From Mytilus galloprovincialis (taxonomy: Eukaryota; Mollusca; Bivalvia; Mytilida; Mytilidae), in NCBI RefSeq assembly GCF_965363235.1, contig NC_134840.1:1922001-1986000 (forward strand): a stretch of 64,000 bases of DNA. The letters are read 5' to 3'. The notes beneath the pieces are model-generated. The model worked only from the letters and a program-made list of their open reading frames with translations. It had not been told where the DNA came from and made no database searches. A program made the position numbers and the translations under genes. This document shows positions 14,737 to 40,300 of the stretch, one piece after another (positions within the stretch are counted from its first letter, which is position 1; each line of letters opens with the position of its first letter).

Positions 14737-17700
14737 ATGGAAAACAATAATGGTTTGGTATTGGTAGAGTCTCAGCAGAGTAGGAGCTCAAGTCTTATTG
14801 ACTCAAATATTTCACAGACCAGTGAGCAAGGGGATGGTGTCACAACAAATAATAATCTATTTATAGACAAAGACAGGGCCCATAACTTTCTTAGAGGGTT
14901 TTCAAAACTATACCGTAACAAAGAATTTGTTGATGTTGTGCTTTCAGTTGATGGGAAAGATTTTCCCTGCCATAAAAATGTTTTGGCAATATCTAGTCCT
15001 TTTTTCATGGCAATGTTTTCAACAGATATGGCTGAAAGCCACCAAGATAAGATTGCATTACATGAGATTGACTCGTTAACAATGGAGTTAGTGTTAGATT
15101 ATATATATACAGGACAAGTGAGTTTATCAGAAGATACCGTACAACATTTATTGTCTGCGTCAAACCGATTCCAGTTGTTATCGTTACGGACAGGATGTGC
15201 TGAATTCATGATGAATCATATCACTGTTGTTAATTGTATTGGTGTTTATTTCTTTGCCAAAGCACATGAGTGTGAGATCTTAGCTTTAAAAGCAAAAGAG
15301 ATTATTAATAATCAGTTTTCAGTATTATGTAAACAGCAAGAATTTTTATCTCTGCCTGCCGATAAACTTGTGGAGATTGTCAGTGATGATGATATTAACG
15401 TTACGGTTGAAGAGACAGTTTTTGAAGCATGCTTAGAATGGGTTATGACAGAAAAGGAAAAAAGACAAAATCATTTAATGGAGATCATGAATTGTGTAAG
15501 GTTTGCAAACATTACTTCATACTATTTCTGTGATAAAATTGATCCAAACACTTTATTGAGGAGTTGTGAATCATTAAGGAAGACATTAGATATTGTACGA
15601 TATTACCACATGTTACGAAATAGGCAACAGGAAATGGATCTGAACTTAATGCCAAGACAAGGCATGTTATATGAGAGGGGAGTAATGATCATAGCTAATC
15701 CGTACACTGAAGATTCTCTCAAGAAATTCAACAGTATGGAGTTACTACTGCCAAAGACAGGAGAAGTCATTTCTATATGTAAACTGCCACAAAGTTTGTA
15801 TACCCCAGGTAAGTTGTATGTCTAGCTGTTGAATCTTTGACATGTTTGTTGTACATTGTATGTATTTTTACTAGTTAGTGGATCTTGACATTGTCAAAAA
15901 CTGTTAGACTACCTTTCAGAAGTCACTTTCAGGCCTCCAAGATCCTGGCCAACATTTCAAAATTCCCCATTTCTATTCTCAATTTTATTTTCCTTAATTT
16001 GACAAAAATGGTATATACTTGTACTTGATTGAATGATGGTCGGTATTTCAAGAGTTTACCAAAGGACTTGGAAAAAACACATATTTTTGGAAATTATGAT
16101 TTTGTGGTAAAAGGAAAAATATATCACATACAACAGGTAAAACATTTTATATACATGTATATTTGAAATTGTTGCAAAAATATCTCCTTCAATTTGGTTT
16201 TATAAATTTGATGTAGACATATGACTATGATAACATACATGTATATAAAAAAAAGAACGAAAAATACCAGAGGGACATTCAAACTCATAGATCAGAAATA
16301 AACTGACAATGTCAGGGCTAAAAAATAAAAGACAATTGTACTGTATATAATATCTTTCAAAATAAATATGTTATTTAGTATTAACATTCCTAAGTAGACA
16401 ATAACATTTCAGAAATTTTCTAGATTATATTTCACACATGCTATATATATCACTATAATATTCTGCTTTGCTGTTGTGACTTTCAGGTTGTGCAATAACA
16501 GGAGAGAATCAGGTTTATTTAGCTGGAGGTGCCATACGGAAGATTAACTACAGAGGTTCTATCACAACAGAGGGGGTATCCAATAACTTCTATATGTTTG
16601 ATCAGCTAGAATGTGCCTGGCAGACTAAGGCCAAGATGAATATGTGTAGGTCACAGTTCTCACTCACAGTGGTTGATGGGTAAGCCTAATTAGGTTGAGT
16701 AAAGTTGGGACAGACCTTCAATGTATATGATGACTTGGAGTACCTAGACAGACAGACTCAAAATAAGAAGAAAGATTTGGTATGATTTCCAATGAGACAA
16801 CTATATGTATCTGTTGGAACGTTAACCAAATTCGGACAAAAAATGTAAACATCAATAGGTCACTATAAAGCATTCAACATGTAAAAGGCCCAGGCATAAC
16901 ATAATGTACAACGATTCAAAGGAGAAAAACATTGGCCTGATTTAGGCTAAAGATATAACATGTACATGTTTAAATTTGACAACTTTTGCTTGTTAGTTTC
17001 AGTGAACCTGGTTATCCCCAAAGTTAAAAGGAAGTGGATGTAAGCAAAAATAGGCAACCATATGACCTTCAACAATGAGAAAAAAACCATACTGTACAGT
17101 TTGCTATAAAAAGGCCCATATACGAAAAATATGTAACAATTCAATTGTGAAAAACTAACAGCCTAATGACACTTGTTTCAACATTTTATAGACAATACAC
17201 ATATACACATTTGTTTATTTACAATTACTTACAGGTACATGTTTGCTATTGGAGGTCAGGATGGGACAGAGATACTTAGTAGTGTTGAACGATATGACCC
17301 CCACTCTAATGCCTGGATGCTGGTGGCCCCTCTACCAAAGGCACTAAGATTTATGACAGCCTTGAGTTACAGGGGAAGGTTGTATGTTTTTGGAGGGGAG
17401 GCGTCCACAGATGTTAGTAACTCTGTGTATAGGTAAGGACTAGGTTTTATCAAAGATCACTTAATGTTACAGAAAACCATCCACAGATGTTAGTAACTCT
17501 GTGTATAGGTAAGGAGTAGGTTTTATCAAAGATCACTTAATGTTACAGAAAACCATCCACAGATGTTAGTAACTCTGTGTATAGGTAAGGAGTAGGTTTT
17601 ATCAAAGATCACTTAATGTTACAGAAAACCATCCACAGATGTTACTAACTCTGTGTATAGGTAAGGAGTAGGTTTTATCAAAGATAACTTAATGTTACAG

Positions 17701-20353
17701 AAAACCATCCACAGTTGTTAGTAACTCTGTGTATAGGTAAGGACTAGGTTTTATCAAAGATCACTTAATGTTACAGAAAACCATCCACAGTTGTTAGTAA
17801 CTCTGTGTATAGGTAAGGACTAGGTTTTATCAAAGATCACTTAATGTTACAGAAAACCATCCACAGATGTTAGTAACTTAGTGTATAGGTAAGGACTAGG
17901 TTTTATCAAAGATCACTTAATGTTACAGAAAACCATCCACAGTTGTTAGTAACTCTGTGTATAGGTTAGGACTAGGTTTTATCAAAGATCACTTAATGTT
18001 ACAGAAAACCATCCACAATTGTTAGTAACTTATTGTTTATGAATTTGTAAGGCCTATGTTCTATGGTTACAGAAAACCATCAAGTTTATGACAAGTTTAA
18101 GAAAGGGAGAAATTTATATATATCAATAGCTGATTACTAACCTTAAATTCATACTCTTCTGGTGCAATTACAGTGATTATTTATCAAGTTTTCTGATCAG
18201 TGAAATATAGATATAAAAGTTTAACCTATTCACCCTGAAGGGGACAGACATATGGTCATTTTAATACAAAAGTGCTACTAATTATAAATGTATTAGCTGA
18301 TATGAGCCTGAATAGTTATCCTTTCATATATTTGTAATACTCATATGATGTATATTTTAGGTATGATCCAACAGAAGATACATGGTCAGAGTTGCCTCCC
18401 ATGAATATAGCTCGAGTTCTAGCTGGGAGTGTTGTGTATAAAGACAAGATCTATGTTATTGGTAATATGACTGGGAAACCTCCTTCATCAAATAATCTTT
18501 TGTTAAATCCATTTTATTGCTAATTAAACTCATCGTAGATACCAGGATTTAAATTTTGTACGTCAGGCACATATTTTGTCTACAAAAGTCTTAAATAAGA
18601 CTCATTTTTGCAGAAACTGAAATATTAGCTTGTCCTGCTTAACATGGTTACTTTTTGAAGGATATATTTTAAGATTCTATTATAAATATTATGTAATCAT
18701 TTGTTCAATTAAACATGATAGAATAACAAACCTTTGCACAATGATCATAACTTATGAGTCGAAAGATACTAATGAGTCAAAAACAAACTGACAAAGCCAG
18801 GGCAGAACACAAAAAAAACACAAACAACAAAAACACAAAATATAGAAACCTAAAGACTGAGGAATACAAACCGCATCAAAAACTATGGTATTCCAGGTGC
18901 TATAGAAGAATTAGCAGTTCCTGCTCCACATGTGGCACATGTTGTGTTATAATTTATAACAGTAATATATCTCTCTTTATGGATATGTGTCATGGAATTA
19001 AATATTAAGGGCACACCTTTATTAATGAATTAACACGAGATTTACTATATTTGATCAGTCAATCAGCATGTATAAATTATTATAAATCAACTCAACATAT
19101 TTTTACTGGATTATAAAACAGCTCTGTTCACTCAGTGCAACTTTCAAAGAAGGTTTTTTATATGCATTTTTTTTTAATAAATATTCCCAGTTTAATTTGT
19201 ATTAGAAAGGTTAGAATAAAATGTTAGATCAGATATTAAAAGCCTTCACTAGCTTATGTTTGTTTGTTTTTTTAATTAGGTGGAAATTCAGCATTAAGTG
19301 AGAAATGGAAGAGAGAGTTTTTACCAGAACACTGTGTTAGTTCTGTAGAGATATTTGATCCAGAGAGCCAGACCTGGAGCCCAGGACCAGAACTTCCAAA
19401 TGCATTATGTGGAGCTGGTAAATTAGTTTCTTATAATATCATAAAATCATGTACTTCAATCTCTTTCAGCTGTATTAAAAATATTTATTAGTAATTTAAA
19501 AACAAATTAGATAAAAGGTTAGTGTTAACTCACCAAATATAAAACATAAACTGACAAAATTGAGAGTATCTTTTTGTTACATGAAACAAAAATTAAAAAT
19601 CATCAAACAAAATGTCTGTGAAAATAGAATTTCTTACTGAAAATGTAAGTTACATTTTTCATACTTATGAATGAACTGATTTAATTGCCCAGTGAAATAT
19701 ATAAAACAAAGAAAATCCCTTATCTGTATTCATTTTATACACAAAAGTAGTCTTCACTAAAAAAGATTATGCACATATTTTGTTTTTAAAGTTAAACTTT
19801 AATACATATTTTACATTAAACATTATTTATAGGGGTTATCTGCCCTTAGACTATTCATTTTTTTATGTTCTGTATATGAAAAACTAATAACTACTTTTAT
19901 GATAATTTAAATTGTACTTTATTGCATAGTTTATTTTTACTAATGAAGGTAAACATTTACAAACTTCATTTTGGCACATAACCCCCCCCCCCCCACCACC
20001 ACCACCTCCAAGAAGAAATTGTGTTGAGAGAATTATTTTACCTTATCCAATATATGTTTCCTATAAAATCACAATGTTTGATTTTGATATTGTTGTTACC
20101 AATCTATATACACATTTACACTATTAAATAAATACACAACAAATTATCTTTTGTTTAAGGAATTGTGAAATATGGAAACACCATATTGATTGTTGGTGGA
20201 GAAGATGATAAAAGTTGGATGGCAGGACTCTGTTGGTTAAAAGAAGAGAAAGGACGACAGACGTGGGCAGAAGGACAAGAATTACCTACAGTTATGAGTA
20301 CATTTGGTTGTGTTGTAGCTAACATACATCATGAAGCACCAAAGAATCAGTGA
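14737..20353 (+). CDS. BTB-BACK-Kelch protein (KLHL family), complete, 631 aa
   Basis: Expected to be a substrate adaptor of Cullin-3 ubiquitin ligases. Coding exons: 14737-15808, 16487-16679, 17235-17432, 18361-18461, 19280-19417, 20160-20353; all GT-AG, phases 1,2,2,1,1, total 1896 nt with the stop. BTB domain at about residues 48-160 (FVDVVLSVDGKDFPCHK, then FFMAMFSTDMAE, which contains the phi-x-E motif used for Cullin-3 contact), BACK at about 165-268, and Kelch repeats from about 360 to 620 with repeated GG motifs and blades such as VERYDPHSNAWMLVAPLP and VYRYDPTEDTWSELPPM. Start chosen at 14737 because an acceptor lies 33 nt upstream and the context is good (G at -3 and +4). I cannot assign it to one vertebrate KLHL type. 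Intron 3 and the 3' end are each amplified as tandem repeats derived from the adjoining exon. Confidence 0.95.
16250..16340 (+). repeat. Fragment of repeat family R4
   Basis: Contains 'accagagggacattcaaac', 'tcatagatc' and 'aaataaactgacaa', the opening phrases of the R4 family that recurs at 18770-18960, 34085-34330, 35870-36085, 38690-38880 and 56995-57130. It lies in intron 1 of the Kelch gene. Confidence 0.6.
16756..17125 (+). repeat. Diverged R2 repeat pieces in Kelch intron 2
   Basis: Two degenerate R2 fragments. One near 16765-16840 has 'ggtatgatttccaatgagac'; the other, near 17045-17120, has 'atgaccttcaacaatgag' and 'gctataaaaaggccc'. Both carry many differences from the copies at 43560 and 49645. 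Confidence 0.5.
17404..18040 (+). repeat. 76-bp tandem array derived from the end of Kelch exon 3
   Basis: Nine units start at 17404 and every 76 bp to 18012; the last is degraded. Each unit holds the final 29 nt of exon 3 ('tccacagatgttagtaactc' through 'tgtgtatag'), the 5' splice site gtaagg, and 47 more bases ending 'atgttacagaaaacca'. Donor-like sites therefore sit at 17433, 17509, 17585, 17661, 17737, 17813 and 17889, with a changed one (gttagg) at 17965. Each unit also carries the AG of 'atgttacag'; from that AG to the next donor is 36 nt, phase 2 at both ends, with no stop. Reading straight through the first donor meets TAA at once. Confidence 0.95.
18530..18615 (-). repeat. Fragment of repeat family R5
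   Basis: Contains 'ataccaggatttaaatt', 'gtacgtcaggcac' and 'gtctacaaaagtc'. The reverse complement of this order is seen at 57830-57905 ('tttgtagacgaaacgcgcgt', 'aatcctggta'), a repeat I remember as frequent in mussels. It lies in intron 4 of the Kelch gene. Confidence 0.5.
18760..18965 (+). repeat. R4 repeat copy in Kelch intron 4
   Basis: R4 phrases in order: 'aaactgacaaagccagggc', 'aacacaaaatatagaaac', 'ccaggtgctatagaag', and 'gctccacatgtggcacatgt' followed by 'tgtgt'. In the copies at 34085 and 35870 the same phrases lie directly 3' of a reverse-transcriptase remnant, so I infer R4 is the 3' tail of that retroelement. Confidence 0.55.
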
Positions 20354-21056
20354 TATTGTTGATTATAGCTAACATACATCATGAAGCACCAAAGAATCAG
20401 TGATATTGTTGATTATAGCTAACATACATCATGAAGCACCAAAGAATCAGTGATATTGTTGATTATAGCTAACATACATCATGAAGCACCAAAGAATCAG
20501 TGATATTGTTGATTATAGCTAACATACATCATGAAGCACCAAAGAATCAGTGATATTGTTGATTATAGCTAACATACATCATGAAGCACCAAAGAATCAG
20601 TGATATTGTTGATTATAGCTAACATACATCATGAAGCACCAAAGAATCAGTGATATTGTTGATTATAGCTAACATACATCATGAAGCACCAAAGAATCAG
20701 TGATATTGTTGATTATAGCTAACATACATCATGAAGCACCAAAGAATCAGTGATATTGTTGATTATAGCTAACATACATCATGAAGCACCAAAGAATCAG
20801 TGATATTGTTGATTATAGCTAACATACATCATGAAGCACCAAAGAATCAGTGATATTGTTGATTATAGCTAACATACATCATGAAGCACCAAAGAATCAG
20901 TGATATTGTTGATTATAGCTAACATACATCATGAAGCACCAAAGAATCAGTGATATTGTTGATTATAGCTAACATACATCATGAAGCACCAAAGAATCAG
21001 TGATATTGTTGATTATAGCTAACATACATCATGAAGCACCAAAGAATCAGTGATCT
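20317..21056 (+). repeat. 50-bp tandem array over the Kelch stop codon, 15 copies
   Basis: Fifteen nearly identical 50-bp units begin at 20317, 20367 and so on to 21017. The first unit is coding: it supplies the last codons (A-N-I-H-H-E-A-P-K-N-Q) and the TGA at 20351-20353. The next fourteen repeat this same segment plus 'tattgttgattat' in the 3' untranslated region. Almost no variation is visible apart from the final unit ('tgatcttgta'), so expansion was recent or is kept uniform. Confidence 0.97.
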
Positions 21057-21109
21057 TGTATAGTAGGCCTTGTTGACTTGGAAAGGTCATGTTAACTATT
21101 ATAGGTCTT

Positions 21110-21222
21110 GTTGACTATTACAAGTCTTTTGAATACTCTTTTTGACTGATATAAGTCTTTTTTACTAATATAAGTCTTTTTGACTGATATAAGTCTTTTT
21201 GACTGATATAAGTCTTTTTAAA
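21110..21222 (+). repeat. Short 20-bp tandem repeat
   Basis: About five imperfect units of 'gactgatataagtctttttt' type, just downstream of the 50-bp array in the probable 3' untranslated region of the Kelch gene. Confidence 0.75.
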
Positions 21223-22952
21223 GATGAATACAAGATTCCTCTGACAGCCTTTTAAGAACTCATTTTGTTTGTCATCCTAATGGTGTAGTCCATATAGAAA
21301 TCATGATGACAATTTCTGACCTAAATGTATGAAACCAAGTTTACATCTTGAAATGGTAAAATATCGAATTTTGTGTAAACAATTTGTGCATTAACCAATT
21401 TCTTATTAATTTGTATCTTTTAACACATACACACCACCAAGTCTGGTTGACAATTAACATGTTTTCAATAAGGACTGCACTTTGGTGTACCACAGCCCAA
21501 CAACTCTTTAAAAAGACTGTCTGGAGGCAAAGCAAATCAGAAATCAGATTAGTTGTAGATTATTTACATCATGATGTTTTAAATTATCATTACTGCCATA
21601 TTTAACTGTTGTTTGTAAGCTACAGATAATTTGAGGATTTTAGGAGTTTCCTAGTCTATTTTTGTTAGATGTAAAATTTTTATTGATTTTCATTCAGTCA
21701 ATTAAAATATTTATTACCATTAGCACTCATTTTAACGCTGCTCTTGTTTTTGAATTTTTGTGAAATATTTTGGAATCCTCTGGTTTTATCCATGTCGTGC
21801 CATTAAACATTTTACCATCTAACCCCTACCTTTCTTGCCATAATTCTTATACATACAGTTTAAAAAGCTATTTTTCAAATGTTATAAAATGCTTGTTATT
21901 TTTCATAGTTTTTGAAAGAAAAAGATACAAATGTTAAGTGTATAAAGATCAAGAGTGATTCATTTCGATCCAGATTTTTGATGGCTTTCATCTGAAAGAC
22001 AAGGACTTTTTATCTGTCTTCTTAAGTTCTGTTATTTATATTTTATCAATTTATTATATCCTTTTATAAAGCTTGATATTTTGAAACAGAGTAGCATTTA
22101 TCCTTAATTAACATATGTTTGCAACTTTATTATGCTCTTTCTTATTTACATACTAATGTCCTGTGATTGCAAATCCTGTACATTGTTTATTTAATTAAAT
22201 TTCATATTTTTGAAAGGAAGCTTTGACACAAATTGTTTACACTTGTTTTGATGTGAAAAGTTATTATGATGTTTGAAGATGTGGACAGAGAAAGAATTAA
22301 GATACAATACAGTAATATTATTCAGGATTTCATATAAAAACTGTAAACCTAGTGATTGAAGATTGGATATGGTATGTCATATCTTGTAAATGTTGTGAAA
22401 GAGAATTCTTTAGTAATAAACAATTAATTTTTAAGCTAATTATTCTCATGTGCATTATGAACACTAATAATAATATGTAATTAACCAAAATTATGGCTAA
22501 AAATAGTAAAATACTTTCCAGAACCACCCATAGAAGTAATGTAACAGTTTTATTTATATAGCAAAAATTGTGATATAATGATGGAAACCTGGAACTTGTT
22601 TAAATGTGTCTTAGATGTGTTAATATACATAACTTATTGCTAATTAAAGAAACAATGTAATTACTTTAAGCATTTCATGAGATTCTGAAACTTGTTTACA
22701 TTGACATTTTCATATTGTTTGTATATCTATTTTACCTTGCATTTTAATATGGTGACCACAATTGAGTAGGTCCACCTTATGGTGAAGTCATTTTTATATT
22801 GTTATTTGAAAGCATTTACCAATGTATGTATGAGCTGCTATCAAAATTAACACTGTGATTAAAATTATAGATTGTTTTTCTATAGAAATTATAAGTATTA
22901 AATGCAATTTTAGAAAGAAAAAAACTTTTAATTTACTGTTAGCATTAGAGGT
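21223..22952. other. AT-rich stretch, probable 3' UTR and spacer of the Kelch gene
   Basis: No coding frame with recognisable content. A canonical AATAAA lies at 22415-22420 and could serve the Kelch transcript if the untranslated region is about 2 kb, but no further evidence fixes the 3' end. Confidence 0.4.
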
Positions 22953-23098
22953 TTGTTCACTTCTAGCTTTGTGATAATGTGCGTGTATTTGGGCATTAGA
23001 GGTTTGTTCACTTCTAGCTTTGTGATAATGTGCGTGTATTTGGGCATTAGAGGTTTGTTCACTTCTAGCTTTGTGATAATGTGCATGTATTTGGGCAT
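22945..23098 (+). repeat. 52-bp tandem repeat, three copies
   Basis: Three nearly identical units of 52 bp beginning 'gcattagaggtttgttcact' and ending 'gtgtatttgg'. The third has a single change (gcatg for gcgtg). No coding content. Confidence 0.9.
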
Positions 23099-23264
23099 TA
23101 GAATTGATCTGATTTCTTGTCTAACTAAAGACTTCAAAAATCAGTATTTCTCTCATTATACAATCTATAGACTAGACGGCTAAATGATTTGTTCACATGT
23201 AAAAACAGGCCCTGCATATCTGTATTGTACAAAGCATGAGGTTACATGGTCCTGCCCTAAAATG

Positions 23265-24275
23265 TTGAAGGTTTGCATACTACAATAAAAAGTAAAGATA
23301 GCAAAAATACTGAACTTAAAGGAAAATTCAAAAGAGAAAGTCCTTTATATAATGGCAGAATAAAAAGCTCAAGTACATCAAACGAATGAAAAACAATTTT
23401 CATATTCCTGACTTGCAATTGGTACGGGTATCAATTTAACCTGAAAAAAATTTAAATATTCAAAAGAATTTTTTGACTGGATGCAAAACAAACAGTAAAC
23501 AACATGGATGAAAGGTTTTTCTAAAATAAGCATAGTAACACTCGGTTGTTAATACAGCTGATCTCAAAGTGAAATTTATATTTAATATTTATATATCAAA
23601 CTGTATATAATTAAAATGGACATTAGCTTTTCTACACTATATGGCAATTTTTTCTGCAGAGAAAACATCAAAACATACAGATATCTTTAAGAGACAACAG
23701 TAATTTACCGATGGTCAAAGCTTGTTAATCCATTTAGTATATGCCAACCAAGAGAGAAAAAACAACCATAAGTGAATCAGATGTACCCCTAAAGGAGTCC
23801 TCTTACTAACTCATAGGATCTCCTGCTTTCCATTCGTTATGTGGATTTAAATAAAGGCAACAGTAGTATACCGCTGTTCAAAACTCATTTATCCATGGAC
23901 AAAAAACAAAATCGGGGTAACAAACTAAAACCGAGGGAAACGTATTAAATATAAGAGAGCTACGACACAACACTAAAATGTAACACACACAGAAACGGAC
24001 CAAGCATCAGACAAAATCCCACGAGAATAACAAATATAACATCAAAATCAAATACATGAATTTGGGATAGACAAGTACTGTGACACGTCTTATCGCAATG
24101 TAAAATTACACTCAAAAATAAGAGAAAACAAACGACGCAACGTTAAAATGTAACACACACAGAAACGAACAATAATATAACAATGGCCATATTCCTGACT
24201 TGGTACAGGACATTTTTAAAGGAAAAAATGGTGGGTTGAACCTGGTTTTGTGGCATTCTTCTCATAATCCTGCTT
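23265..24275 (+). repeat. Cluster of R1 and R3 repeat copies
   Basis: R1 at about 23265-23465 ('aaaaatactgaacttaaagg', 'catattcctgacttgcaatt'). R3 at about 23855-24010 ('aaataaaggcaacagtagta', 'taccgctgttcaaaac', 'aacaaactaaaaccgaggga', 'taacacacacagaaacgga'), with a second partial R3 end near 24140-24170. A further R1 end at about 24185-24270 has 'catattcctgacttggtaca'. Other R3 copies are at 33648-33790, 36355-36510 and, partial, 57345-57380. Confidence 0.6.
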
Positions 24276-25575: not shown

Positions 25576-28500
25576 ATGGACGACGTAGAAATTCAAAAGG
25601 CAATGAAAAGGGACAGAAAGTTTGTCTGTTCTAACGCTAGGATATTAATTGTATGTGTTTTCTCATCCGTTTGTTCAATTAGTTGTGTTATTTGTATGTG
25701 GTTATCTGTAAACAAGATTGAACAGATAAGGAGAGAGTTGATAACCTTGTCGCATAGAAGTCCTGAAATAAATTCTACTAGAGCAGCAGCGGAAAATACA
25801 ATCAAGGTAACTTTAAAAAGCAAATTGTAGATTTTTTGTTCACAAATTACATTTCATAAATATGTACTATTTATATTTTTATTTCAATACTTGTAGAATT
25901 CATCACATGTACAAGTGCCATTCAACATTATATTTAACAGTCTTAAGAAAACGACCAGCCAGCTAATTTTGTAGTATTTACTTTTTATTATCATTGTAAC
26001 TATTCTTAATTTATTATCTTTCTGGAGAAAAAGTCATGATATATAATGATGACAGTCACTCGAATATATTTTGTTTTTACATATGTTTTGATTTTGACAG
26101 AGTGATGATATACTTCTAGAGGAAGCAAGTGACGATACAATGTCAAGTAACCAAAGTCTACATGGTGCAGGTAGGTTCATTACTGTAAAGTGCTTATGAT
26201 TCTAAAGGAAGCAAGTGACGATACAATGTCAAACAATCAAAGTCTACATGGTGCAGGTAGGTTCATTACTGTACAATGCTTATGATTCTAAAGGAAGCAA
26301 GTGACGATACAATGTCAAACAACCAAAGTCTACATGGTGCAGGTAGGTTCATTACAGTACAGTGCTTATGATTCTAAAGGAAGCAAGTGACGATACAATG
26401 TCAAGTAACCAAAGTCTACATGGTGAAGGTAGGTTCATTACTGTACAATGCTTATGATTCTAAAGGGAGCAAATGACGATACAATGTCAAACAACCAAAG
26501 TCTACATGGTGAAGGTAGGTTCATTACTGTACAGTGCTTATGATTCTAAAGGAAGCAAGTGACGATACAATGTCAAACAACCAAAGTCTACATGGTGAAG
26601 GTAGGTTCATTACTGTACAATGCTTATGATTCTAAAGGAAGCAAGTGACGATACAATGTCAAACAACCAAAGTCTACATGGTGAAGGTAGGTTCATTACT
26701 GTACAATGCTTATGATTCTAAAGGAAGCAAGTGACGATACAATGTCAAGTAAACAAAGTCTACATGGTGCAGGTAGGTTCATTACTGTACAGTGCTTATG
26801 ATTCTAAAGGAAGCAAATGACGATACAATGTCAAACAACCAAAGTCTACATGGTGCAGGTAGGTTCATTACAGTACAGTGCTTATGATTCTAAAGGAAGC
26901 AAGTGACGATACAATGTCAAACAACCAAAGTCTACATGGTGCAGGTAGGTTCATTACTGTACAGTGCTTATGATTCTAAAGGAAGCAAGTGACGGTACAA
27001 TGTCAAACAACCAAAGTCTACATGGTGAAGGTAGGTTCATTACAGTACAGTGCTTATGATTCTAAAGGAAGCAAGTGACGATACAATGTCAAACAACCAA
27101 AGTCTACATGGTGAAGGTAGGTTCATTACTGTACAGTGCTTATGATTCTAGAGGAAGCAAGTGACGATACAATGTCAAACAACCAAAGTCTACATGGTGC
27201 AGGTAGGTTCATTACAGTACAATGCTTATGATTCTAAAGGGAGCAAGTGACGATACAATGTCAAACAACCAAAGTCTACATGGTGAAGGTAGGTTCATTA
27301 CTGTACAGTGCTTATGATTCTAAAGGAAGCAAGTGACGATACAATGTCAAGTAACCAAAGTCTACATGGTGAAGGTAGGTTCATTACTGTACAGTGCTTA
27401 TGATTCTAAAGGAAGCAAGTGACGATACAATGTCAAGTAACCAAAGTCTACATGGTGAAGGTAGGTTCATTACTGTACAGTGCTTATGATTCTAAAGGAA
27501 GCAAGTGACGATACAATGTCAAACAATCAAAGTCTACATGGTGCAGGTAGGTTCATTACTGTACAATGCTTATGATTCTAAAGGGAGCAAATGACGATAC
27601 AATGTCAAACAACCAAAGTCTACATGGTGAAGGTAGGTTCATTACTGTACAATGCTTATGATTCTAAAGGGAGCAAGTGACGATACAATGTCAAACAACC
27701 AAAGTCTACATGGTGCAGGTAGGTTCATTACTGTACAATGCTTATGATTCTAAAGGGAGCAAATGACGATACAATGTCAAACAACCAAAGTCTACATGGT
27801 GAAGGTAGGTTCATTACTGTACAGTGCTTATGATTCTAAAGGAAGCAAGTGACGATACAATGTCAAGTAACCAAAGTCTACATGGTGCAGGTAGGTTCAT
27901 TACTGTAAAGTGCTTATGATTCTAAAGGGAGCAAATGACGATACAATGTCAAACAACCAAAGTCTACATGGTGCAGGTAGGTTCATTACAGTACAGTGCT
28001 TATGATTCTAAAGGAAGCAAGTGACGATACAATGTCAAACAACCAAAGTCTACATGGTGCAGGTAGGTTCATTACTGTAAAGTGCTTATGATTCTAAAGG
28101 GAGCAAATGACGATACAATGTCAAGTAACCAAAGTCTACATGGTGAAGGTAGGTTCATTACTGTACAATGCTTATGATTCTAAAGGGAGCAAATGACGAT
28201 ACAATGTCAAACAACCAAAGTCTACATGGTGCAGGTAGGTTCATTACAGTACAGTGCTTATGATTCTAAAGGGAGCAAATGACGATACAATGTCAAACAA
28301 CCAAAGTCTACATGGTGAAGGTAGGTTCATTACTGTACAGTGCTTATGATTCTAAAGGAAGCAAGTGACGGTACAATGTCAAACAACCAAAGTCTACATG
28401 GTGAAGGTAGGTTCATTACTGTACAGTGCTTATGATTCTAAAGGGAGCAAGTGACGATACAATGTCAAACAACCAAAGTCTACATGGTGAAGGTAGGTTC

Positions 28501-31500
28501 ATTACTGTACAGTGCTTATGATTCTAAAGGGAGCAAATGACGATACAATGTCAAACAACCAAAGTCTACATGGTGAAGGTAGGTTCATTACTGTACAATG
28601 CTTATGATTCTAAAGGAAGCAAGTGACGATACAATGTCAAGTAACCAAAGTCTACATGGTGCAGGTAGGTTCATTACTGTAAAGTGCTTATGATTCTAAA
28701 GGGAGCAAATGACGATACAATGTCAAACAACCAAAGTCTACATGGTGCAGGTAGGTTCATTACAGTACAGTGCTTATGATTCTAAAGGAAGCAAGTGACG
28801 ATACAATGTCAAACAACCAAAGTCTACATGGTGCAGGTAGGTTCATTACTGTACAGTGCTTATGATTCTAAAGGAAGCAAGTGACGGTACAATGTCAAAC
28901 AACCAAAGTCTACATGGTGAAGGTAGGTTCATTACTGTACAATGCTTATGATTCTAAAGGAAGCAAGTGACGATACAATGTCAAACAACCAAAGTCTACA
29001 TGGTGAAGGTAGGTTCATTACTGTACAGTGCTTATGATTCTAAAGGAAGCAAGTGACGATACAATGTCAAACAACCAAAGTCTACATGGTGAAGGTAGGT
29101 TCATTACAGTACAATGCTTATGAAACAGTACTGATAGTAAAGTTGTGAGGTGACAGCGAGTTGTCACGGTTTTGAATCCCCTCTAGGAGCTCTGTATTTG
29201 TTTTTGACTTACTGTTTTCTCACGTTATAAAAGATAAAAGATGATACCAAGAGGTAAAACAATGTCACTAGTCGTAGAAAAACAGACAGCGTATTTTACC
29301 AAATAAGAAAAAAGGAGATAAGTAGTATAAAACAGTAATGATGATTCAATATGAACGATACCATGAACCGAGTAATATTGACGAAAATGTCCTAGGTTAT
29401 GGGAGGGTTGAGAACCCCACCACATTCTCTATTATGTGCGTGTCCCAAGTCAGGAGCCTGTAATTCAGTGGTTGTCGTTTGTTGATGTGTTACATATTTG
29501 TTTTTCGTTCATTTTTTTTGTACACAAATAATGCCGGTAGTTTGTCGTTTGAATTATTTTACATGGTTCACTTCGAAGCCTTTTATAGCCGACTATGCGG
29601 TATCGACTTTGCTCGTTTTTGAAGGCTGTACGGTGACCTATAGTTGTTAATTTCTGTGTCATTTGGTCTCTTCTGGATAATTGTCTCATTGGCAATCATA
29701 CCACTTCTTCTTTTTTACATCTTTCATTTATCGAGTAAAATATTGAAAAAAGTTAACCCTACCACTAATCGGTTGAACATATCAACAAAAATATTAATAT
29801 TAATTCTATATTATCTTTTGTTTGACTGCCCCTCTGGTATCTTTCGTCTCTCTTCACGGCTGAATGATTGGACCAAATGAACCATCTAAAAGGCGAAAGA
29901 TTGAAGAAAATAATACCTGCCATTATTTAATGAGACCAGTTGTCTAGGAATGGTAATATGTACTGTTCTTGTATTTTCTTGGGACGTTTTAATCATGACA
30001 ATGCCTAGTAGTACAGAGACAAACCTATGTCTTTTCTGTATTGGTGATAAATCAATTTTTAATTTGTAAAAAAGGAAATAACAAAAGTACCTAACTCCTA
30101 TGTAAATTATAAAACAGATGGGAAAATCCATAAAACTGACAAAATAAATCATCAGAATGAATGGAAAAGACAAGTAAGACACAGAATAAAATATGCCATG
30201 CCATTATCTATTTTTATTTTCCTATCAACTGTTTTGTGAATTTAAAAATACTTGAAGTAATATGATATTCAATGTATATCATTTATTAGCTTCATAGTTT
30301 TAAATGTACAAATATTTTTTTTGAACAGAATTAGGAGGGAGACATCTGAGAACAAATAACAGAATGGAAGATATTCAAGGTAACTGCGTCACACATCTTA
30401 TATTTTTTTTTTATATATATATGCTATAATACAATCATAAACAGTACTTTCAAATTGTTTCTATTTTCAAAATATATTTAGTACATACACTATTTGATAT
30501 TATTTTATCCACGAATTCTTTGAAAACGTATAATAGCATAGCATTTGCGATCCATTTATCGATATAGTCGTGAACTAATAATGCTTTTTATCGGTTTCTT
30601 AGTTTTTCGCATAGAAACAGAATTTTATGCAAATGATGCGAAAGATTGTTAACTGTTGCTGCAAAATGTGTTAATACGGTGTGTTTATTTAATTTCAGGT
30701 GGTATTTTGCATCTTGATGCACCTGTACAGCAGGTAATATTAATTATAATTTAGAATTTGAAGTCGTAAAACCGGTTTCAATGCACTGTTTTAAAAAAAA
30801 ATACAGATGTGCAGAAAAGTTGATCTTAAAAAAATAATAATAATAAAAAGTAAAAATTGCAAATAATTGTAGTGACATTGTAGTCAATCTATCTTCTTCT
30901 TCATTATAATATTTAAATCAAGTGTAACAGTTATTTTTAAATTTAACATATATTCTCATACGCATACCATGTATTAGTATACCGAAGCAAACACTTTAAT
31001 AATTTAAAATACACAATATACATACAATCATAACAATTACACTGTTAAATAACTTTGTATTTTATAAAGAAAGCGTAATTGAGAATGTGAAGAATCAGAA
31101 TAAAAAGTTTGTCTATACATTTGTTGACATTAAGACTAATGAATAACATAAATGCATCTTTCTTTACACCTTTCTATAGCCTAAAGCCGTTCATTATGTT
31201 CCAACTGGAGTCACAAGAGATCTCATCAGTCAAACATTTACAAACAGTGAGTTGAATAATCACAATTATATCTCGAAAAAGCTTAAATAACGTTTACTTA
31301 TATTGACTGATATCGGCATTACACAGGTTAAATAACGTTTACTTATATTGACTGATATCGGCATTACACAGGTTAAATAACGTTTACTTATATTGACTGA
31401 TATCGGCATTACACAGGTTAAACGGTCAAACGTTTACTTATATTGACTGATATCGGCATTACACAGGTTAAACGGTCAAACGTTTACTTATATTGACTGA

Positions 31501-34500
31501 TATCGGCATTACACAGGTTAAATAACGTTTACTTATATTGACTGATATCGGCATTACACAGGTTAAATAACGTTTACTTATATTGACTGATATCGGCATT
31601 ACACAGGTTAAATAACGTTATACAATTACTGTCTTTTGATGAGGTAAATATGCGGTTTTATTGACTTTTGAAAAATGATATTCACTAAGGCCGACGGCCG
31701 AAGTGAATATCAGTTTTTCAAAAGTCAATTAAACCCCATATTTACCGAAACAAAAGACAGTAATTGTTTTATTCCATATTCCGAGAGAAGAACATGACTG
31801 TATTTAATGAATAACATATACCAAAACAAATTTTACATGAAACATTTAACCGTAACGTTGCATGTAAAAGCGCGTGACGTTTAGCGCGGTGAATAACACT
31901 TTCTCAGGTGAATATGCTTTTTTATTCAAAATCCAATTCATATAGAGAAACCTACTAATATAATACCAATATGGAATAATTACTTATATTGACTGATCTC
32001 GGCATTACACAGGTTAAATAACGTTTACTTATATTGACTGATATCGGCATTACACAGGTTAAATAACGTTTACTTATATTGACTGATATCGGCATTACAC
32101 AGGTTAAATAACGTTTACTTATATTGACTGATATCGGCATTACACAGGTTAAATAACGTTTACTTATATTGACTGATATCGGCATTACACAGCTTAAATA
32201 ACGTTTACTTATATTGACTGATATCGGCATTACACATGTTAAACGGTCAAACGTTTACTTATATTGACTGATATCGGCATTACACATGTTAAACGGTCAA
32301 ACGTTTACTTATATTGACTGATATCGGCATTACACAGGTTAAACGGTCAAACGTTTACTTATATTGACTGATATCGGCATTACACAGGTTAAACGGTCAA
32401 ACGTTTACTTATATTGACTGATATCGGCATTACACAGGTTAAACGGTCAAACGTTTACTTATATTGACTGATATCGGCATTACACAGGTTAAACGGTCAA
32501 ACGTTTACTTATATTGACTGATATCGGCATTACACAGGTTAAACGGTCAAACGTTTACTTATATTGACTGATATCGGCATTACACAGGTTAAACGGTCAA
32601 ACGTTTACTTATATTGACTGATATCGGCATTACACAGGTTAAATAACGTTTACTTATATTGACTGATATCGGCATTACACAGGTTAAACGGTCAAACGTT
32701 TACTTATATTGACTGATATCGGCATTACACAGGTTAAACGGTCAAACGTTTACTTATATTGACTGATATCGGCATTACACAGGTTAAACGGTCAACATCA
32801 CAAATTGTATCACCAATAAGATGTGTCTATACCCAACTCTCTAGTGACATGTTTTCGTGGTCTTAGATCTTTAGATTCCAATATAGTCATTTGATCTGTA
32901 ACTGCACAGATTGTTTCCTATTCCTAATTGTTGCATCTCTGCTGGGGGTGTTTCCTTATTTCAATAATTTACCTCCGTAAGTTGCACTATAACAAAATAA
33001 AATGTAGCGATATTTATCACTGTTAAACAACTACAATGACTCGTTTTACTCTACACTTGTTTTAAATACATAATTGAAACTTATATAATTATATGTTTAT
33101 TACACCACTTCAATTCAGTTTACTTTAACACAGAACAAAGATGAGCAAGACAAAGACACTACTTAATTATATCAAATGAAAATAAAAATACCGCTTTATA
33201 CATATATATATACGTCTGGAGTGCTTTCCAATTATCCATCATAAAGTCAAATAATTTTCAAAAGACATCATTTCAACATATGATATAAAATATTATGTGG
33301 AAAAAGTAAAATAACAAAAATACTGAACTGTGAGGAAAATTCAATACGAAAAGTTTCTTATAATGGAAAATCAAAAGCTCTTAAAAATAAAACAAATTAT
33401 GTGCAACAAACAAATAATAATATATATTTTGCATTTTGATCAAACATCCTTGGATTATTTTCTATCATGTTAGCTACTTATACAGTGACATACTTTTGTT
33501 TTAAATATCTCTAATACGTTAACTAGATATTTTTCAGTATGATAATGGTATCTCTTTTTATTCTAGATGCAATGTGTGTAAACAAATGGCACGGTTTGAT
33601 GTGTAGGAATAATACATATAAGAATATAGGTATGATTCATTTCGGTGTGAATAAATAAAGGCAACAGTAGTATACCGCTGTTCAAAAGTCATAAATCGAT
33701 TGAGAGAAAACAAATCCGGGTTACAAACTAAAACCGAGGGAAACTATAAGAGGAAAACAACGGAACAACAGAAAAAGAGTTATGAAAGTGTACACAAATG
33801 AACAAAATAAAATTGCAAATTGAGTATGGTATGAAATTCAACACTTTGTTTTTATTTTTAAAGCAAGCAAAAACGACCTACGCTCTAAATAAAAATAAAA
33901 CGAGATGATTTCCAATGAATTATTTTTGCAACAATTTCTATTAAACCATACATACATATTTTTGTTATCTGCAGACTTCCTTCTGACTTTGATCTCTGAC
34001 AAAGATAACATTTAATCATTTAAAAATATAACCTACTCTTGGGCACATCTTAATTATAGTTCAACTGGTCTTCTGATATTGATAGCTAATAAAAGACGAA
34101 CGAAAGATACCAGAGGGATAGTCAAACTCATAAATCGAAAATAAACTTACAACGCCATGGCTAAAAAAGAAAAGGACAAACAGACGAACAATAGTACACA
34201 TGACACAACATTGAAAACTCAATAAGCAACACGAACCCCACCAAACACTAGGGGTGATCTCAGGTGCTCCGGAAGGGTAAGCAGATCCTGCTTCACATGT
34301 GGCACCCGTCATGTTGCTTATGTGATAACAATCCGGTAAATAGTCTAATTCGGTAGGTCACATTCATGAAAGGGAAGGGGATTGTAGTTATGACGTAAGA
34401 AACATATCCGATATCATTTGTGAAACGGTTATTCCATAACTGTCAACCCACTCATGATGGCGTCCGTAAAATTTACAAAGGGATGATTTCAACTTCACGA

Positions 34501-36880
34501 TTTGGAACTCTTGGTTTAATAGCTTCCTTGTGAGAAGTAACCCTCTATCAAGAAAATCATGATAGGAAATGCAAGCTCGGGAATATCGTTTCAATTGGGA
34601 GATATATACCACGTATGCAGGTGCTGCTTGAATGTTGCTACTCAGAAATGGAAAGTTCACAATTGAAAAGTTGAAATCATCTTTTTTGTCGTAAATTTTT
34701 GTTTTCAACCGATCCTCGTTGTCAATTTCTAGATGTAAGTCAAGATATGAGGCCGACTTAACTGTATCTGTAGTATCTTTTATCTCTAGTTCGATGGGAT
34801 AGATTCGTCACCAAATAGTCACCAAATTTTGAATTATTTGGTGAAAGAACATCCTCTATATAGCGGAAAGTAGAGTTAAAGGATATTGCTAACTTTTTAT
34901 CTTTCTTCCTATGAAGTTCCTGTATGAAGTCAGCCTCCTATTAATAAATTAACAAGTCGACAATAAGAGGGGCACAATTTGTTCCGATTGGAATGCCGAC
35001 AGTCTGTTGAAAAACACGTCCTCCGAACGTAACAAATATGCTGTCAATCAAGAAATCAAGCATCTTGATAATGTCAGTTTCAGAGAATTTTTCGTTTGAA
35101 TCAGAGTGATCCTTTACAAAGTAGGATGTATCCCTCCCTAAGACAAGATACTTGTATCTACGTTGGCCATTCTTTTTTATGAAATAAAGCAATACGAACT
35201 CTTTCGATTTGTCTTTTAGTTTGGAATGAGGAATACTTGTGCGAAGCGTAGAAAAGTCAAATGTTTTTTTTATAATTATAAAAAGACTCTGGAACTTTTA
35301 CCTACCGTGAGGTCTAGGTCCATTCACTTAGCAGTATAATACTACTGTTGAATCATTACATTCAAGTTAACATTTGGTGTATATTGGTATATACATACCA
35401 TTTCATTTATCTCAAAAGACCTTGCACATGCTACGAACTGAATTTGTTCCTTATTTATAGATTCCAATAGAATTATAGAATTTTGGAAAAAAGCTCAATG
35501 GACAAAGACTCACAATAGAGATGTACTTTCACTCGGAATGAACAAACCAAGCCCTGGAATATTTACAGTGGAAACTGGAGGATTATATCTTATGTATCTA
35601 AATGTAATAGTTTGTAAATGATATAGATATAGGAAGATGTGGTATGAGTTCCACACATATGTATATGTATATGTATCTAAATTGATTTTGTTCATTTTAA
35701 TTAACAATATGAAAACAGTAGCTGTAGGAGAGTTGGATTAAAGGATTAACAGTTGAATAGTCAGAGGAATTATTTTAATTTTCCTACACCATAGCAATGA
35801 TTTATTTTTGTATTTTTCATTTCGGGCATATATTTAGAGCGAAATTATTTTATTGTTGAATCCATTATTTAAAAAGGAGTAAAAGATACCAGAGAGACTT
35901 TCAAACTGACAACGCCATGGATAAAAAAGAAAAAGACAAATAGTACACAAGACACAACATATAAAACTAAGGACTAAGCAAAACGAACACAACCAAAAAC
36001 TGGGGGTGATTGCAGGTGCTCCGTCCTGCTCCACATGTGGCAACCGTCGTGTTGCTCATGTTATTACACACCCGGTAAATAGTCTAATTTGGTAAGTCAC
36101 ATTCGTGAATAGGGAACGCGATTGTAGTTACGACATAACATATCCGATATTATCTGTGAAACGGATATTCCATAACTGTCAACCAACTCGTGATGTTCTC
36201 CGTAAAATTTACGAAGAGATGATTTCAACTCCATTGTGAACTCTTGGTTTAATGGCTTGTTTAATTTTTGTTTGCTCAACGTTTAGTTGTAATTTATTTG
36301 TGGATATTTTAAAGACAGATATAATGCTAACTTTTGTATTTAAAAAACAATCCAAAAAAATAAAGGCAACAGTAGTATACTGCTGTTCAAAACTTATAAA
36401 TCCATGGACAAAAAACAAAATCGGGGTAACAAATTAAAACTGAGGGAAACGCATTAAATATAAGAGGAGAACAACGACACAACATTAAAATGTAACACAC
36501 ACAGAAACGGACTAAAAAGGCATGTTCCAAAAAATGATATTTTTTATACAGATTTCCAACATGAAGTTATTATTACAAAACGCATTCTAATTGTATACTT
36601 TTCTTAATATATGTTGTAGGTTCTTATCAGTGCAACACTTTCTAAACACGACGTTGGAATATTTATAGCGGATGACAAAAAATTAGTTTGCCGTGAGAAT
36701 TTAGACTATGTCAGAGGTACCGCATCTGTGTCTACTAACTCAAAGGCTAAAACCTGTAGCGTATCGGGAGTGTTTTACGTCGAGCGAAGTCAAACAATTA
36801 CCGTTAAGATAGTCACCAGGAACACCGAAATATACCTGGATAGCTATAATACAAACTTTGGAGCTGTTTTACTTGCATAA
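25576..36880 (+). CDS. TNF-superfamily ligand A, complete, 306 aa
   Basis: Predicted type II membrane ligand for a TNF receptor. Coding exons: 25576-25806, 26101-26170, 30329-30379, 30699-30733, 31180-31246, 33567-33629, 35461-35603, 36620-36880; phases 0,1,1,0,1,1,0; 921 nt with the stop. Residues 1-21 are a charged cytoplasmic tail, 23-43 a Cys-rich transmembrane helix, 45-129 a stalk with an N-Q-S sequon, and about 130-306 the TNF homology domain. The domain opens with PKAVHY (compare the family's AAH), has a C-x5-G-x2-C motif followed by the NNT sequon (155-168), the strand GGLYLMYLN|VLIS interrupted by intron 7, a second cysteine pair in the last exon, and the typical end TNFGAVLLA. The stalk has no collagen repeats. 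Exon 2 is the seed of an 86-bp array; intron 5 holds a 45/50-bp array; introns 6 and 7 carry retroelement remnants. Receptor unknown. Confidence 0.92.
26122..29118 (+). repeat. 86-bp tandem array derived from TNF-A exon 2 and its 5' splice site, 35 copies
   Basis: Thirty-five units with a strict 86-bp period (26122 to 29046 for the unit starts; no insertion or deletion seen). The first unit is the 3' part of exon 2 (26101-26170). Each unit repeats 49 nt of exon, the donor gtaggt (26171, then every 86 bp to 29095), the sequence 'tcattactgtacag', and 17 nt that resemble the 5' end of exon 2. From the AG of 'gtacag' (or 'gtaaag') to the next donor is 66 nt, phase 1 at both ends, with no stop in the units read, so each could in principle add 22 residues in frame. 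The 20-nt gap between mini-exons is too short for normal splicing, so only joins across several units are conceivable. Variation is by substitution: E/G, S/N, D/G, A/E. Confidence 0.97.
29465..29720 (-). repeat. R2 repeat copy, reverse orientation
   Basis: On the plus strand it reads 'agttgttaatttctgtgtca', 'ctcattggcaatcatacc' and 'cttcttcttttt', the reverse complement of the R2 start. The portion at 29500-29640 matches the rest of the family more loosely. It lies in intron 2 of TNF-A. Confidence 0.6.
31280..31619 (+). repeat. 45/50-bp tandem array in TNF-A intron 5, left block
   Basis: Seven or so units of 'gttaaataacgtttacttat' plus 25 bases ending 'ggcattacacag'. A longer unit type replaces 'taaataacg' by 'taaacggtcaaacg' (50 bp). 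Each unit ends in an acceptor-like 'ttacacag' followed by 'gttaaa'. Unlike the other arrays it starts about 35 bp after the donor at 31247 and does not copy exon sequence. Confidence 0.95.
31620..31980. mobile_element. Hairpin-containing insertion splitting the tandem array
   Basis: A 361-bp block interrupts the array exactly between 'aacgtt' and 'tacttat' of one unit. Its first half (31623-31766) is a long near-perfect palindrome centred on 'ggccgacggcc', with arms containing 'attgacttttgaaaaa' and 'tttttcaaaagtcaatt'. The second half is unique AT-rich sequence with 'cgcgtgacgtttagcgcg'. I infer a non-autonomous element; I could not define a target duplication. Confidence 0.7.
31981..32793 (+). 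repeat. 45/50-bp tandem array in TNF-A intron 5, right block
   Basis: Continuation of the array after the inserted block: about five or six 45-bp units, then mostly the 50-bp unit with 'ggtcaaacg', with one 45-bp unit returning near 32640. Total for both blocks is roughly 24 units. Two distinct unit types kept in runs suggest local amplification by unequal exchange. Confidence 0.95.
33290..33400 (+). repeat. R1 repeat fragment
   Basis: Contains 'aacaaaaatactgaactgtg', 'aggaaaattcaatacg' and 'aatcaaaagctc', matching the R1 order. It lies in intron 5 of TNF-A. Confidence 0.55.
33648..33790 (+). repeat. R3 repeat copy
   Basis: Opens 'aataaaggcaacagtagtat', then 'accgctgttcaaaa', 'gggttacaaactaaaaccg' and 'gaggaaaacaacgg'. 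It begins only some 20 bp after the donor of TNF-A exon 6. Confidence 0.65.
34085..35265 (-). mobile_element. Retroelement remnant with reverse-transcriptase segments (Penelope-like or LINE-like) and R4 tail
   Basis: On the minus strand two protein blocks are recognisable: one at about 34941-35192 with the reverse-transcriptase-type phrase QQTVGIPIGTNCAPL, and one at about 34388-34708 with NFPFLSSNIQ, VYISQLKRYSRAC and LRKFYG-like text. The stretch 34085-34330, farther 3' on that strand, is an R4 copy, which suggests that R4 is this element's 3' tail. The set of phrases is one I associate with GTNCAPLLADLFLY-type reverse transcriptases found in many invertebrates; I lean to Penelope-like but am not certain. 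The copy is broken in several places and lacks its 5' part. It lies antisense in intron 6 of TNF-A. Confidence 0.75.
35870..36265 (-). mobile_element. Second remnant of the same retroelement, 3' end only
   Basis: The minus strand at about 36097-36265 encodes a short block with NQEFTMELKSSLRKFYGEHHE-like text (SLRKFYGEHHELVDSYGIS), matching the end of the remnant at 34388. The part 35870-36085 is the R4 tail ('caggtgctccgtcctgctcc', 'acatgtggcaaccgtcgtgt'). Strongly 5'-truncated and broken. Intron 7 of TNF-A. Confidence 0.7.
36355..36510 (+). repeat. R3 repeat copy
   Basis: Opens 'aaataaaggcaacagtagta', then 'ctgctgttcaaaac', 'aaaatcggggtaacaaatta' and 'taacacacacagaaacggac'. It ends about 110 bp before the last exon of TNF-A. 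Confidence 0.7.
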
Positions 36881-37040
36881 TGTTTTTAATCTCAACATAA
36901 AAAGTGCGTCTTTTTTTTTGTTGATTTTTTATAAATGACTATAGCGTTGAATAATGTATAACCATGTGGATATGATAACTGTATTGTTAACACCTGCTTG
37001 TTGTCTTAACATATGTAAAGTTACTGTGAAAAGAAACAAG

Positions 37041-37046
37041 AATAAA
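37041..37046 (+). other. Poly(A) signal of TNF-A
   Basis: AATAAA 161 nt after the stop codon of TNF-A and well before the next gene's start at 37324. Confidence 0.55.
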
Positions 37047-37323
37047 TAACATAAAATAGAAAATGTATAATCAAATATTTTTACCCAACCTTATTATGCA
37101 ACATTTTAATCTGAAGTCTTAGTTCATTGTCAGTATTTAAAGCGTCACCCTTCAAGCTAAATTTATTATGTGCTTTATCCGACTTCGAATAATTTATTGT
37201 GTCAAGGTAAAAAAAGGCGGAAATCATAATCCGGTCACCTGTGTTTACATTTTGAATTTCACAAATCTTAATTATACGTTCTTATGACCTTATGTAGCTA
37301 TAGGGCTTAACTTTATTTAAGTC

Positions 37324-40300
37324 ATGAAAGTTACTCAAAATAATGCACCCGTATGCATTAAAAATTTCGGATATTTTATCATATGTTTTTACATTTTATG
37401 GTCGTCCAAAGAAATAGCGCGACTTTCAAACGATGTTGTTGTTCTGCGTAAATCTGTACAAGACATTTTGATAGACGGCCATATACCAGTTCAGGTAATC
37501 TCTTTCTTATATGCTTATGAATTTCTCAATTATGTAATATAAAAAGAAGCACATCCAATATTTATGATATCTGCTCAGATAACTCCTCATCAAACACGAA
37601 AAAAACAAACATTTTATATTTGAATATATCTTCTCTCAAAAACTATTAATATTGCACAAAGATATAACATACAGTTTGTCCACATCAATTTTACGGTGTT
37701 TTATGTCTAACTATTAATTTCCTTCATTTGTTTTGACAAAGCTATTATGTAATATACTTCTTAAACTTATGGTTTATGTTTTAACTTTATCAGAATACAA
37801 GAGAGCATGATCCTATGCATAAAAATGTACAGGACGATGACGACACAGAAAACAAAGCTTCCGACGATCAATATTTTCGCCATAAAAGATTTGCAGATAA
37901 AGGTATGGTTTTTGTACTTTTTTTTAAATGACATTGCATTTCTGAAACCATGTACAATTGTTGGGTTATTTTCTTCAAATAATAATAATAATGTAAAATT
38001 ATAACTATAACTTAAACTATGATATAAATCTGAATTTACTGTTTATTGTGTGTTTAATTTGCTATTTTTCTTCTTGAAATATGTTTTAATTGATTTATCT
38101 ACATAAGGATTAGACACCGTCTTCATATTTAAGATAAGAAAAAATGCAAGAAAGAAAAACGATACCTGAGGAAATGTCGGAAGAAGCTGCGCAATAAGGC
38201 GATTGTCAGTTCAAAAGAGGTACCCACTAACTTAAATTTTGATAAGATTACAAATATGATATTTCACCCAAATAAGGAAGACACGATAAAATATTCACAT
38301 TATCAGTAAAGTGATAAATGCGTAGAGTGGATTAAAAATAAACCGTTGAATGATTAAATACAGCAGGTGGAACTTTATCTGTGGTCGTTCCTGTGGAACG
38401 TTAATAGGATAACGCGCTACGGACGCATACAATTTGCGCGTAACTTTTCATTTGTTTTTGATACTTTAATTTTTTTAATCGAAAACTTTTTTCACAAGTT
38501 TTTTTTTCTGCCTAAAATACTTTATTTCACGAAATTTATCAATTACGTTAACGAATTTAATGTGTTCAGTATATGTAAATGAGACAGAAAACAAACATTT
38601 CAACTTATTCAAAATAATTTAGATATTTACAGCTTTTAATAATAGCCACGTGTTATTGTGTCAAGGTAAAATTCATGTCGAAAAATAGACTAGCACCGCA
38701 ATGGATAAAATACAATATACTTAACACAACATAAACAACTAACATGACTAAATACTGAGGAACACGAATACCACTTAAAAAGGTGCTCTGAAGTTTAATC
38801 AGATCATGCTCCATACGTGGCACCTGTCGTGTTGTGCAAAACGTACAAACCCGGTGATAAGTCTAATTTGTTATGTCACGTTCGGGGAAAAGGAGGATCG
38901 GATTGTGTTTACGACGAAATGAACATATTCGTTGTCATCGTTGAAATAGATGTTCTATCAAATTGCCGATGGTAAATAAATTATATAAGGACCATCAATG
39001 AACTACCATTAACGCCGTATTCTCTTTAGAATAAAAAAAACCAATCAAGTTATGGCAAAACAATTTTTCTATTTGAAATAATAAAAAAAAAATCACTTTT
39101 TCAGTTAAATTTTAAACTGTACTCAGACAAGATACTTTTATTGCAGGCAGCATTACAAGCAGCCCATGTGGAACTTGATTTTCGTATAAATACTACAATG
39201 TCGAAAAAACTATTGATGGCTATTGACAGTAAGTACAACAATGTAAAAAATACATCTGGAAGGTAGACGTACATGTAATGAAAGATTAGTGGCATTCTGT
39301 AAACGAAAGTTGTTATATGTCAAAGTTAGACAGAAGTTAACTACAGTTGTGCAAATCTCAAAAAATAAGAAGATAAAAGTCAAAGTAACAAACAAAAATG
39401 AGAGAGTTTATATATCGGTACATGTTTATAAGTGTTGATGATTATGTGTTTATGTTAATAATATCTATTGTGAAATATTTTGATTTAGATCCCAAATATT
39501 TTCAGAATGTTATAAAGAATTTGGTGGATTAGTTTGTTACAACAATAAGACGTATGAAAGCGACAGTAGACAATCAGGTAAAACATACAACAATAAGACT
39601 TATGAGAGCGACAGTAGACAATAAGGTATAACATACAACAATAAGACTTATGAGAGCGACAGTAGATAATCAGGTAAAACATTTTAAAGTTCAACAAATA
39701 AGACTTATGAGAGCGACAGTAGACAAACAGGTAAAACATTTGAAAGTTCTACCAATAAGACTTTTGAGAGCGACAATAGACAATCAGGTAAAACATTTGA
39801 AAGTTCTACCAATAAGACGTATGAGAGCGACAGTAAACAATCAGGTAAAACATTTGAAAGTTCTACCAATAAGACTTTTGAGAGCGACAATAGACAATCA
39901 GGTAAAACATTTGAAAGTTCTACCAATAAGACTTATGAGAGCGACAGTAAACAATCAGGTAAAACATTTGAAAGTTCTACCAATAAGACTTTTGAGAGCG
40001 ACAATAGACAATCAGGTAAAACATTTGAAAGTTCTACCAATAAGACGTATGAGAGCGACAGTAGACAATCAGGTAAAACATTTGAAAGTTCTACCAACAA
40101 GACTTATGAGAGCGACAGTAAACAATCAGGTAAAACATTTGAAAGTTCAACCATAAGACTTATGAGAGCGACAGTAGACAATCAGGTAAAACATTTGAAA
40201 GTTCTAAAGGATATAAATGAAGAGAATATCGTAAACATAAGCTAAAATAGAATTCTGTTTCCATGATGTATACGAGCAGTTATCTCTACACATTGTACCT

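Follow-up and report, generated by a model that had tools for sequence, protein, structure and literature searches.

Why do several tandem arrays of unrelated sequence in one stretch of mussel DNA each begin inside the end of a coding exon, and what becomes of the splice sites that they multiply? A first-pass annotation of the 64,000-nucleotide stretch of Mytilus galloprovincialis DNA analysed here (the window) had pointed to such arrays at three exon ends, to a fourth array carrying a stop codon and to a duplicated acceptor. It had proposed either that exon borders are favoured as starting points or that multiplied donors are tolerated or useful.

Tandem duplications at exon borders of the window

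Minisatellite-like tandem duplication was confirmed for the window arrays by TRF and by alignment of the copies. Together with direct reading of the DNA, this bore out the arrays at exon ends that carry the donor (at 17404, 26114 and 39543), the fourth array with its stop codon and the duplicated acceptor. Four tandem duplications in the window span an exon border, namely three donor arrays and one two-copy duplication on the acceptor side. The features are as follows.

17235 to 17432, plus strand: kelch exon of a KLHL-type (BTB-BACK-kelch) gene, recognised by Pfam Kelch_1 and an in-house kelch profile; its 3' end seeds array 1
17404 to 18030, plus strand: array 1, 76 bp x 8.2 (TRF and DNA reading), made of the exon's last 29 nt and the intron start
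20316 to 21059, plus strand: array 4, 50 bp x 14.9 (TRF), at the end of the last KLHL coding exon, with the stop codon TGA in each unit
26101 to 26170, plus strand: predicted short exon of TNF-like gene B, lying after a transmembrane exon with matching phases; seeds array 2
26114 to 29123, plus strand: array 2, 86 bp x 35 (TRF), with the donor GTAGGT in 35 of 35 aligned copies
33567 to 33629, plus strand: probable paralogous exon in gene B, free of an array, with a weak match to the array 3 exon and matching phases
39506 to 39577, plus strand: predicted exon of TNF-like gene C; seeds array 3
39543 to 40206, plus strand: array 3, 48-bp units first and then 57-bp units (TRF), with the donor GTAAAA, or GTATAA in one copy
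54152 to 54275, plus strand: two-copy acceptor-side duplication; acceptor and exon start copied once, at 54166, with the exon proper from 54240

The kelch exon ends at 17432 (TATAG/GTAAGG, the slash marking the border), and array 1 starts 29 nt upstream of this end; its donor reads GTAAGG in most copies and GTTAGG in one. Arrays 2 and 3 likewise start within their exons, at borders GGTGCAG/GTAGGT and CAATCAG/GTAAAA. When the copies were aligned, the donor GT was found in later copies of arrays 1–3 too. A tandem duplication that straddles the border copies the donor automatically, which accounts for its presence in every unit. In array 2, an intron between neighbouring copies would measure only 20 nt. 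The two copies of the acceptor-side duplication, which is not an array and was missed by TRF, lie 74 bp apart; because this is not a multiple of 3, the two acceptors give the exon different frames. A scan of the window that did not depend on TRF found 15 local duplication events, and in 4 of them a splice border from the hand-made gene models is included.

How firmly these borders can be called exon edges differs between genes. The seed of array 1 is strongly supported as a real exon by kelch homology (Pfam Kelch_1 match at G000:C3:1939227-1939337; 49 bits with the in-house kelch profile), and BTB and BACK were found in the exon upstream of it. For arrays 2 and 3, an open frame, matching phases and one weak match give moderate support for seeds that are real exons. 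That match is between the array 3 exon and exon 33567–33629 of the neighbouring gene B (44% identity, E 0.28, phases equal); the latter has a single donor and may represent the state of the array 3 exon before expansion. The label TNF-like was given to genes B and C, whose C-terminal exons are related to each other and to that of a third gene. The exon at 54240 matched TNF weakly (E 0.07, below the cut-off).

Other features of the window were recorded alongside. Two arrays 360 bp apart (31283–31619 and 31980–32795) have a common core unit, with acceptor-like ATTACACAGG in the consensus. A large 48-bp satellite array occupies 375–5906 (~115 units by length), and several of its reading frames are open for hundreds of codons; since this follows from the unit length, it is no evidence of a gene. 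On the minus strand, open frames at 34388–34807 and 34941–35297 gave no match in Pfam; they have a reverse-transcriptase-like look and may resemble Penelope-type elements.

Genome-wide DNA searches were performed with arrays 1–4 and their flanks (1.385 Gb in 331 contigs, GC ~32%); common words were skipped, and counts are therefore lower bounds. Among the matches listed, arrays 1–4 matched at their own loci only, and the units are unrelated between genes. On the matches listed, a dispersed satellite was rejected as the source of these four arrays, which upholds the earlier statement that they are not one mobile satellite. Variants are shuffled among the copies of array 2 and the last copy of array 1 has diverged, both of which fit unequal exchange. 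Elsewhere in the genome, a 43-bp x 15.7 array (L021:625-1298) arises from a stretch with ATGAGACAACTATCAACC, and a similar stretch lies near window position 16790; this array was possibly seeded by a dispersed repeat and not by an exon.

Arrays and exon borders elsewhere in the genome

Because the window had been chosen for this very feature, the question of chance was put to loci outside it. The sample was built from loci surrounding Pfam hits of TNF, Kelch_1 and protein kinase. It also took in two kelch stretches with several exons, which were added once the first cases outside the window were known and which contributed no border-spanning array. Dropped before the count were the window itself (L001), 18 tandem kinase loci resembling two others that stayed in, ORFs of at least 260 aa and those exon copies that are repeated within the L037 array; one pair of kelch paralogues (L033 with L034/L042) was retained. 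In all, 65 of 84 loci were merged into 51 contigs (197,829 bp). At 0.24 bits per codon, a trained codon-usage exon finder proved too weak by itself, and homology profiles were used instead; these gave 69 exons with 116 borders, and 42 of the 69 exons came from kelch genes. The main set of arrays was defined by TRF with a period of at least 30 and a score of at least 100 (n = 21), and collapsed units were placed at random.

Four of these 21 arrays, each of them in a kelch gene, span the border of a homology-supported exon, two at donors and two at acceptors.

C2_106033003, outside the window: donor array, 37 bp x 6, kelch gene
C2_32644907, outside the window: donor array, 45 bp x about 3, kelch gene
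C8_70057012, outside the window: acceptor array, 92 bp x 2.8, kelch gene
C9_18801122, outside the window: acceptor array, 99 bp x 7, kelch gene

Thus, units that span the boundary of a real coding exon were found at the kelch exon of array 1 and at these four loci, and with moderate support at arrays 2 and 3; 5' and 3' exon boundaries are both affected, with donor and acceptor cases in the window as well as in the outside sample. The share of splice borders affected in this genome is perhaps a few percent, given 4 cases among 116 borders in a kelch-heavy sample.

The first explanation to be weighed is chance, by which a minisatellite-rich genome would place some arrays on exon borders and the reader would have selected those. 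The comparison of array-border overlap with random placement, which had been proposed genome-wide, was run here on the 197,829 bp of Pfam-chosen sequence. Relative to the four cases observed, 0.86 were expected under uniform placement (P 0.008) and 1.22 under placement within contigs (P 0.023). A stricter set of 13 arrays gave expectations of 0.69 and 1.10 (P 0.003 and 0.016), and a TRF-free scan (26 events) returned the same four at borders with P 0.010 and 0.036. Chance does predict about one border array in the sample and not zero, and with a looser set of 42 arrays (period of at least 20; expected 1.14 and 1.52) P rose to 0.027 for uniform and 0.058 for within-contig placement; moreover, the four cases had been spotted by eye before the array thresholds were fixed. 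We regard the excess as suggestive: modest, and from a small sample.

A donor-motif proxy was also counted across the genome. Three occurrences of CAGGTAAGT at 29–59 bp spacing gave 108 matches, and the reversed motif gave a nearly equal 103, which speaks for chance. Among the matches listed (100 of 108 and 100 of 103), hand-counting found at least 25 donor-motif arrays vs. at least 11 reversed-motif arrays (one-sided P 0.012; worst case 25 vs. 14, P 0.048), with single motifs numbering 10,610 and 10,824, respectively. In the 19 donor-motif arrays for which letters were available, a step in composition between exon and intron was absent (mean GC difference ~0; 6 up, 8 down, 5 equal), which means that many donor-motif arrays may not be exon edges. 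By its array counts, the proxy agrees weakly with the border excess. Selection against border damage should in any case make border arrays rarer than intronic ones and hold exon borders below the chance level, so that a real excess needs either a bias in birth or better retention. Overall, we consider chance an unlikely but serious explanation.

Two further observations came from these searches. CAGGTAAGT is repeated at multiples of 64 and mostly at 78 bp at G000:C1:7060302-7061206 and C1:7066749-7069966; these are additional donor-motif arrays, beyond the searched spacing. Protein-kinase-domain ORFs stand in tandem at G000:C1:45761805-45814157 and C3:92336287-92354268, many of them about 1.85 kb or 1.74 kb apart; their scores are nearly identical, some contain stops, and the arrangement is macrosatellite-like.

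Proposed origin and probable tolerance of the multiplied splice sites

The reading that we favour, with a probability of roughly 0.75, is that these are minisatellites born from duplications straddling an exon border, which then grew and were tolerated under exon definition. A local tandem duplication of about 40–100 bp would straddle the border and then expand, with unequal exchange or slippage keeping its copies alike. The copy that stays attached to the intact exon is the first one at donors and the last one at acceptors. Provided that splice sites pair across the exon, use of the nearest donor and acceptor would yield the normal exon and the remaining sites would end up in the intron, where the array could be tolerated; by matching logic, an array spanning a stop codon would be harmless. 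The exon-attached copy, being under selection, could neither be lost nor drift, and such arrays would therefore stay alive and recognisable longer than purely intronic ones.

Better retention of this kind is a plausible cause of the excess, and it is the one that we favour. Alternatively, exon edges might be duplication hot spots (through a composition step, R-loops or nucleosome borders), with arrays beginning there more often than in introns. Such a bias in birth predicts the excess seen in the sample and in the motif proxy, and donor and acceptor sides are indeed both hit; but no measurement here separates birth from retention, and the donor-motif arrays lack the composition step. We judge a birth bias unlikely. 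Of the proposal that exon borders are favoured, the modest excess stands, with birth and survival both as candidate causes.

In all 5 of the donor arrays examined, translation continued past the first donor runs into an in-frame stop ahead of the second one, indicating that the first donor is required for the normal protein. The unit lengths of 76, 86, 48, 37 and 45 follow no frame rule. Array 3, with its open 57-bp frame (ORF 39688–40245), was considered as an in-frame translated repeat and rejected, since an in-frame TAA lies 44 nt past the first donor and before the second. Multiplied donors might instead act as decoys that adjust splicing and persist under selection, and the GT retained in aligned copies of arrays 1–3 and of C2_106033003 speaks for this. 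However, most of the unit is equally kept (by eye), so GT retention needs no special explanation; later copies of C2_32644907 have GGAAAT in place of GTAAAT, indicating that extra donors are not maintained there; unit sequences are not common to different loci; and the early stops count against use of the later donors. The anatomy of the arrays examined provided no evidence of a decoy function, which we judge improbable. Of the two halves of the earlier suggestion, tolerance is thus favoured over use, and the extra splice sites are most likely passengers and not a new regulatory device.

One acceptor array might affect the protein sequence. The L037 array (L037:1541-2226, minus strand) repeats part of a kelch exon, and the last three of its copies share an open frame with that exon. 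From two of the six upstream acceptors the frame continues into the intact exon, and from the remaining four it is closed by a stop in the fourth copy; given these frames, inclusion of extra 33-aa exon copies is conceivable.

An assembly artefact is very improbable: assembly is difficult where arrays are long and identical, and array 4 is nearly uniform, but variants are interspersed among copies, periods differ between loci and similar arrays were found elsewhere in the genome.

Known counterparts and significance

The first-pass annotation knew of no named phenomenon linking minisatellites to exon edges, which was mistaken. According to excerpts of two papers on amphioxus, 'mirages' are minisatellites across intron/exon boundaries, described in Adh3 and the globins BflGb6 and BflGb9 (PMC3087553), to which PGBD5 and, as cited there, troponin C were added (PMC3902484). 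In these excerpts, 5' and 3' boundaries are both hit and RT-PCR suggests regular splicing (PMC3087553), units measure tens to about 160 bp with AG/GT in many copies, and the repeats undergo concerted evolution from which units at the cluster edge are excluded (PMC3087553, PMC3902484). Like mirages as described there, the window repeats span exon borders at donor or acceptor with the splice signal in many copies; unlike them, they come from a different animal, reach up to 35 copies and are known from the DNA of one assembly. Judged by this analogy, the window repeats appear to be of the same kind as mirages.

Two other systems are partly similar in the portions of the reports at hand. In human segmental duplications, internal tandem repeats are likewise minisatellite expansions at exon-intron boundaries, with altered splicing; those were picked by variation between paralogues and have transcript support for altered gene structure, whereas here only DNA was read (PMC2812944). 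Intron gain in the potato RdRp gene also involves tandem duplication that copies splice signals (PMC4974935); unlike in that excerpt, the copies here most likely lie within an existing intron and not a new one. A literature search found no report of such repeats in molluscs, mussels, bivalves or Mytilus among the titles and abstract beginnings of the matches listed. As far as we have seen, three things are new: the occurrence in a second lineage, how large the arrays are, and a first, though weak, estimate of an excess.

Only tentatively would we propose that minisatellites arise preferentially at coding exon edges in animal genomes at large, with mirages as a general and continuing process that supplies raw material not only for new splice sites but also for introns and for exon copies in frame. 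In the excerpts consulted, amphioxus mirages were reported gene by gene; their occurrence at several exons of another animal, possibly in excess, opens the way to testing whether mirages are a general source from which splice sites and introns evolve. The window also offers a test case for exon definition, with up to 35 donors beside an exon that depends on the first of them for its normal product.
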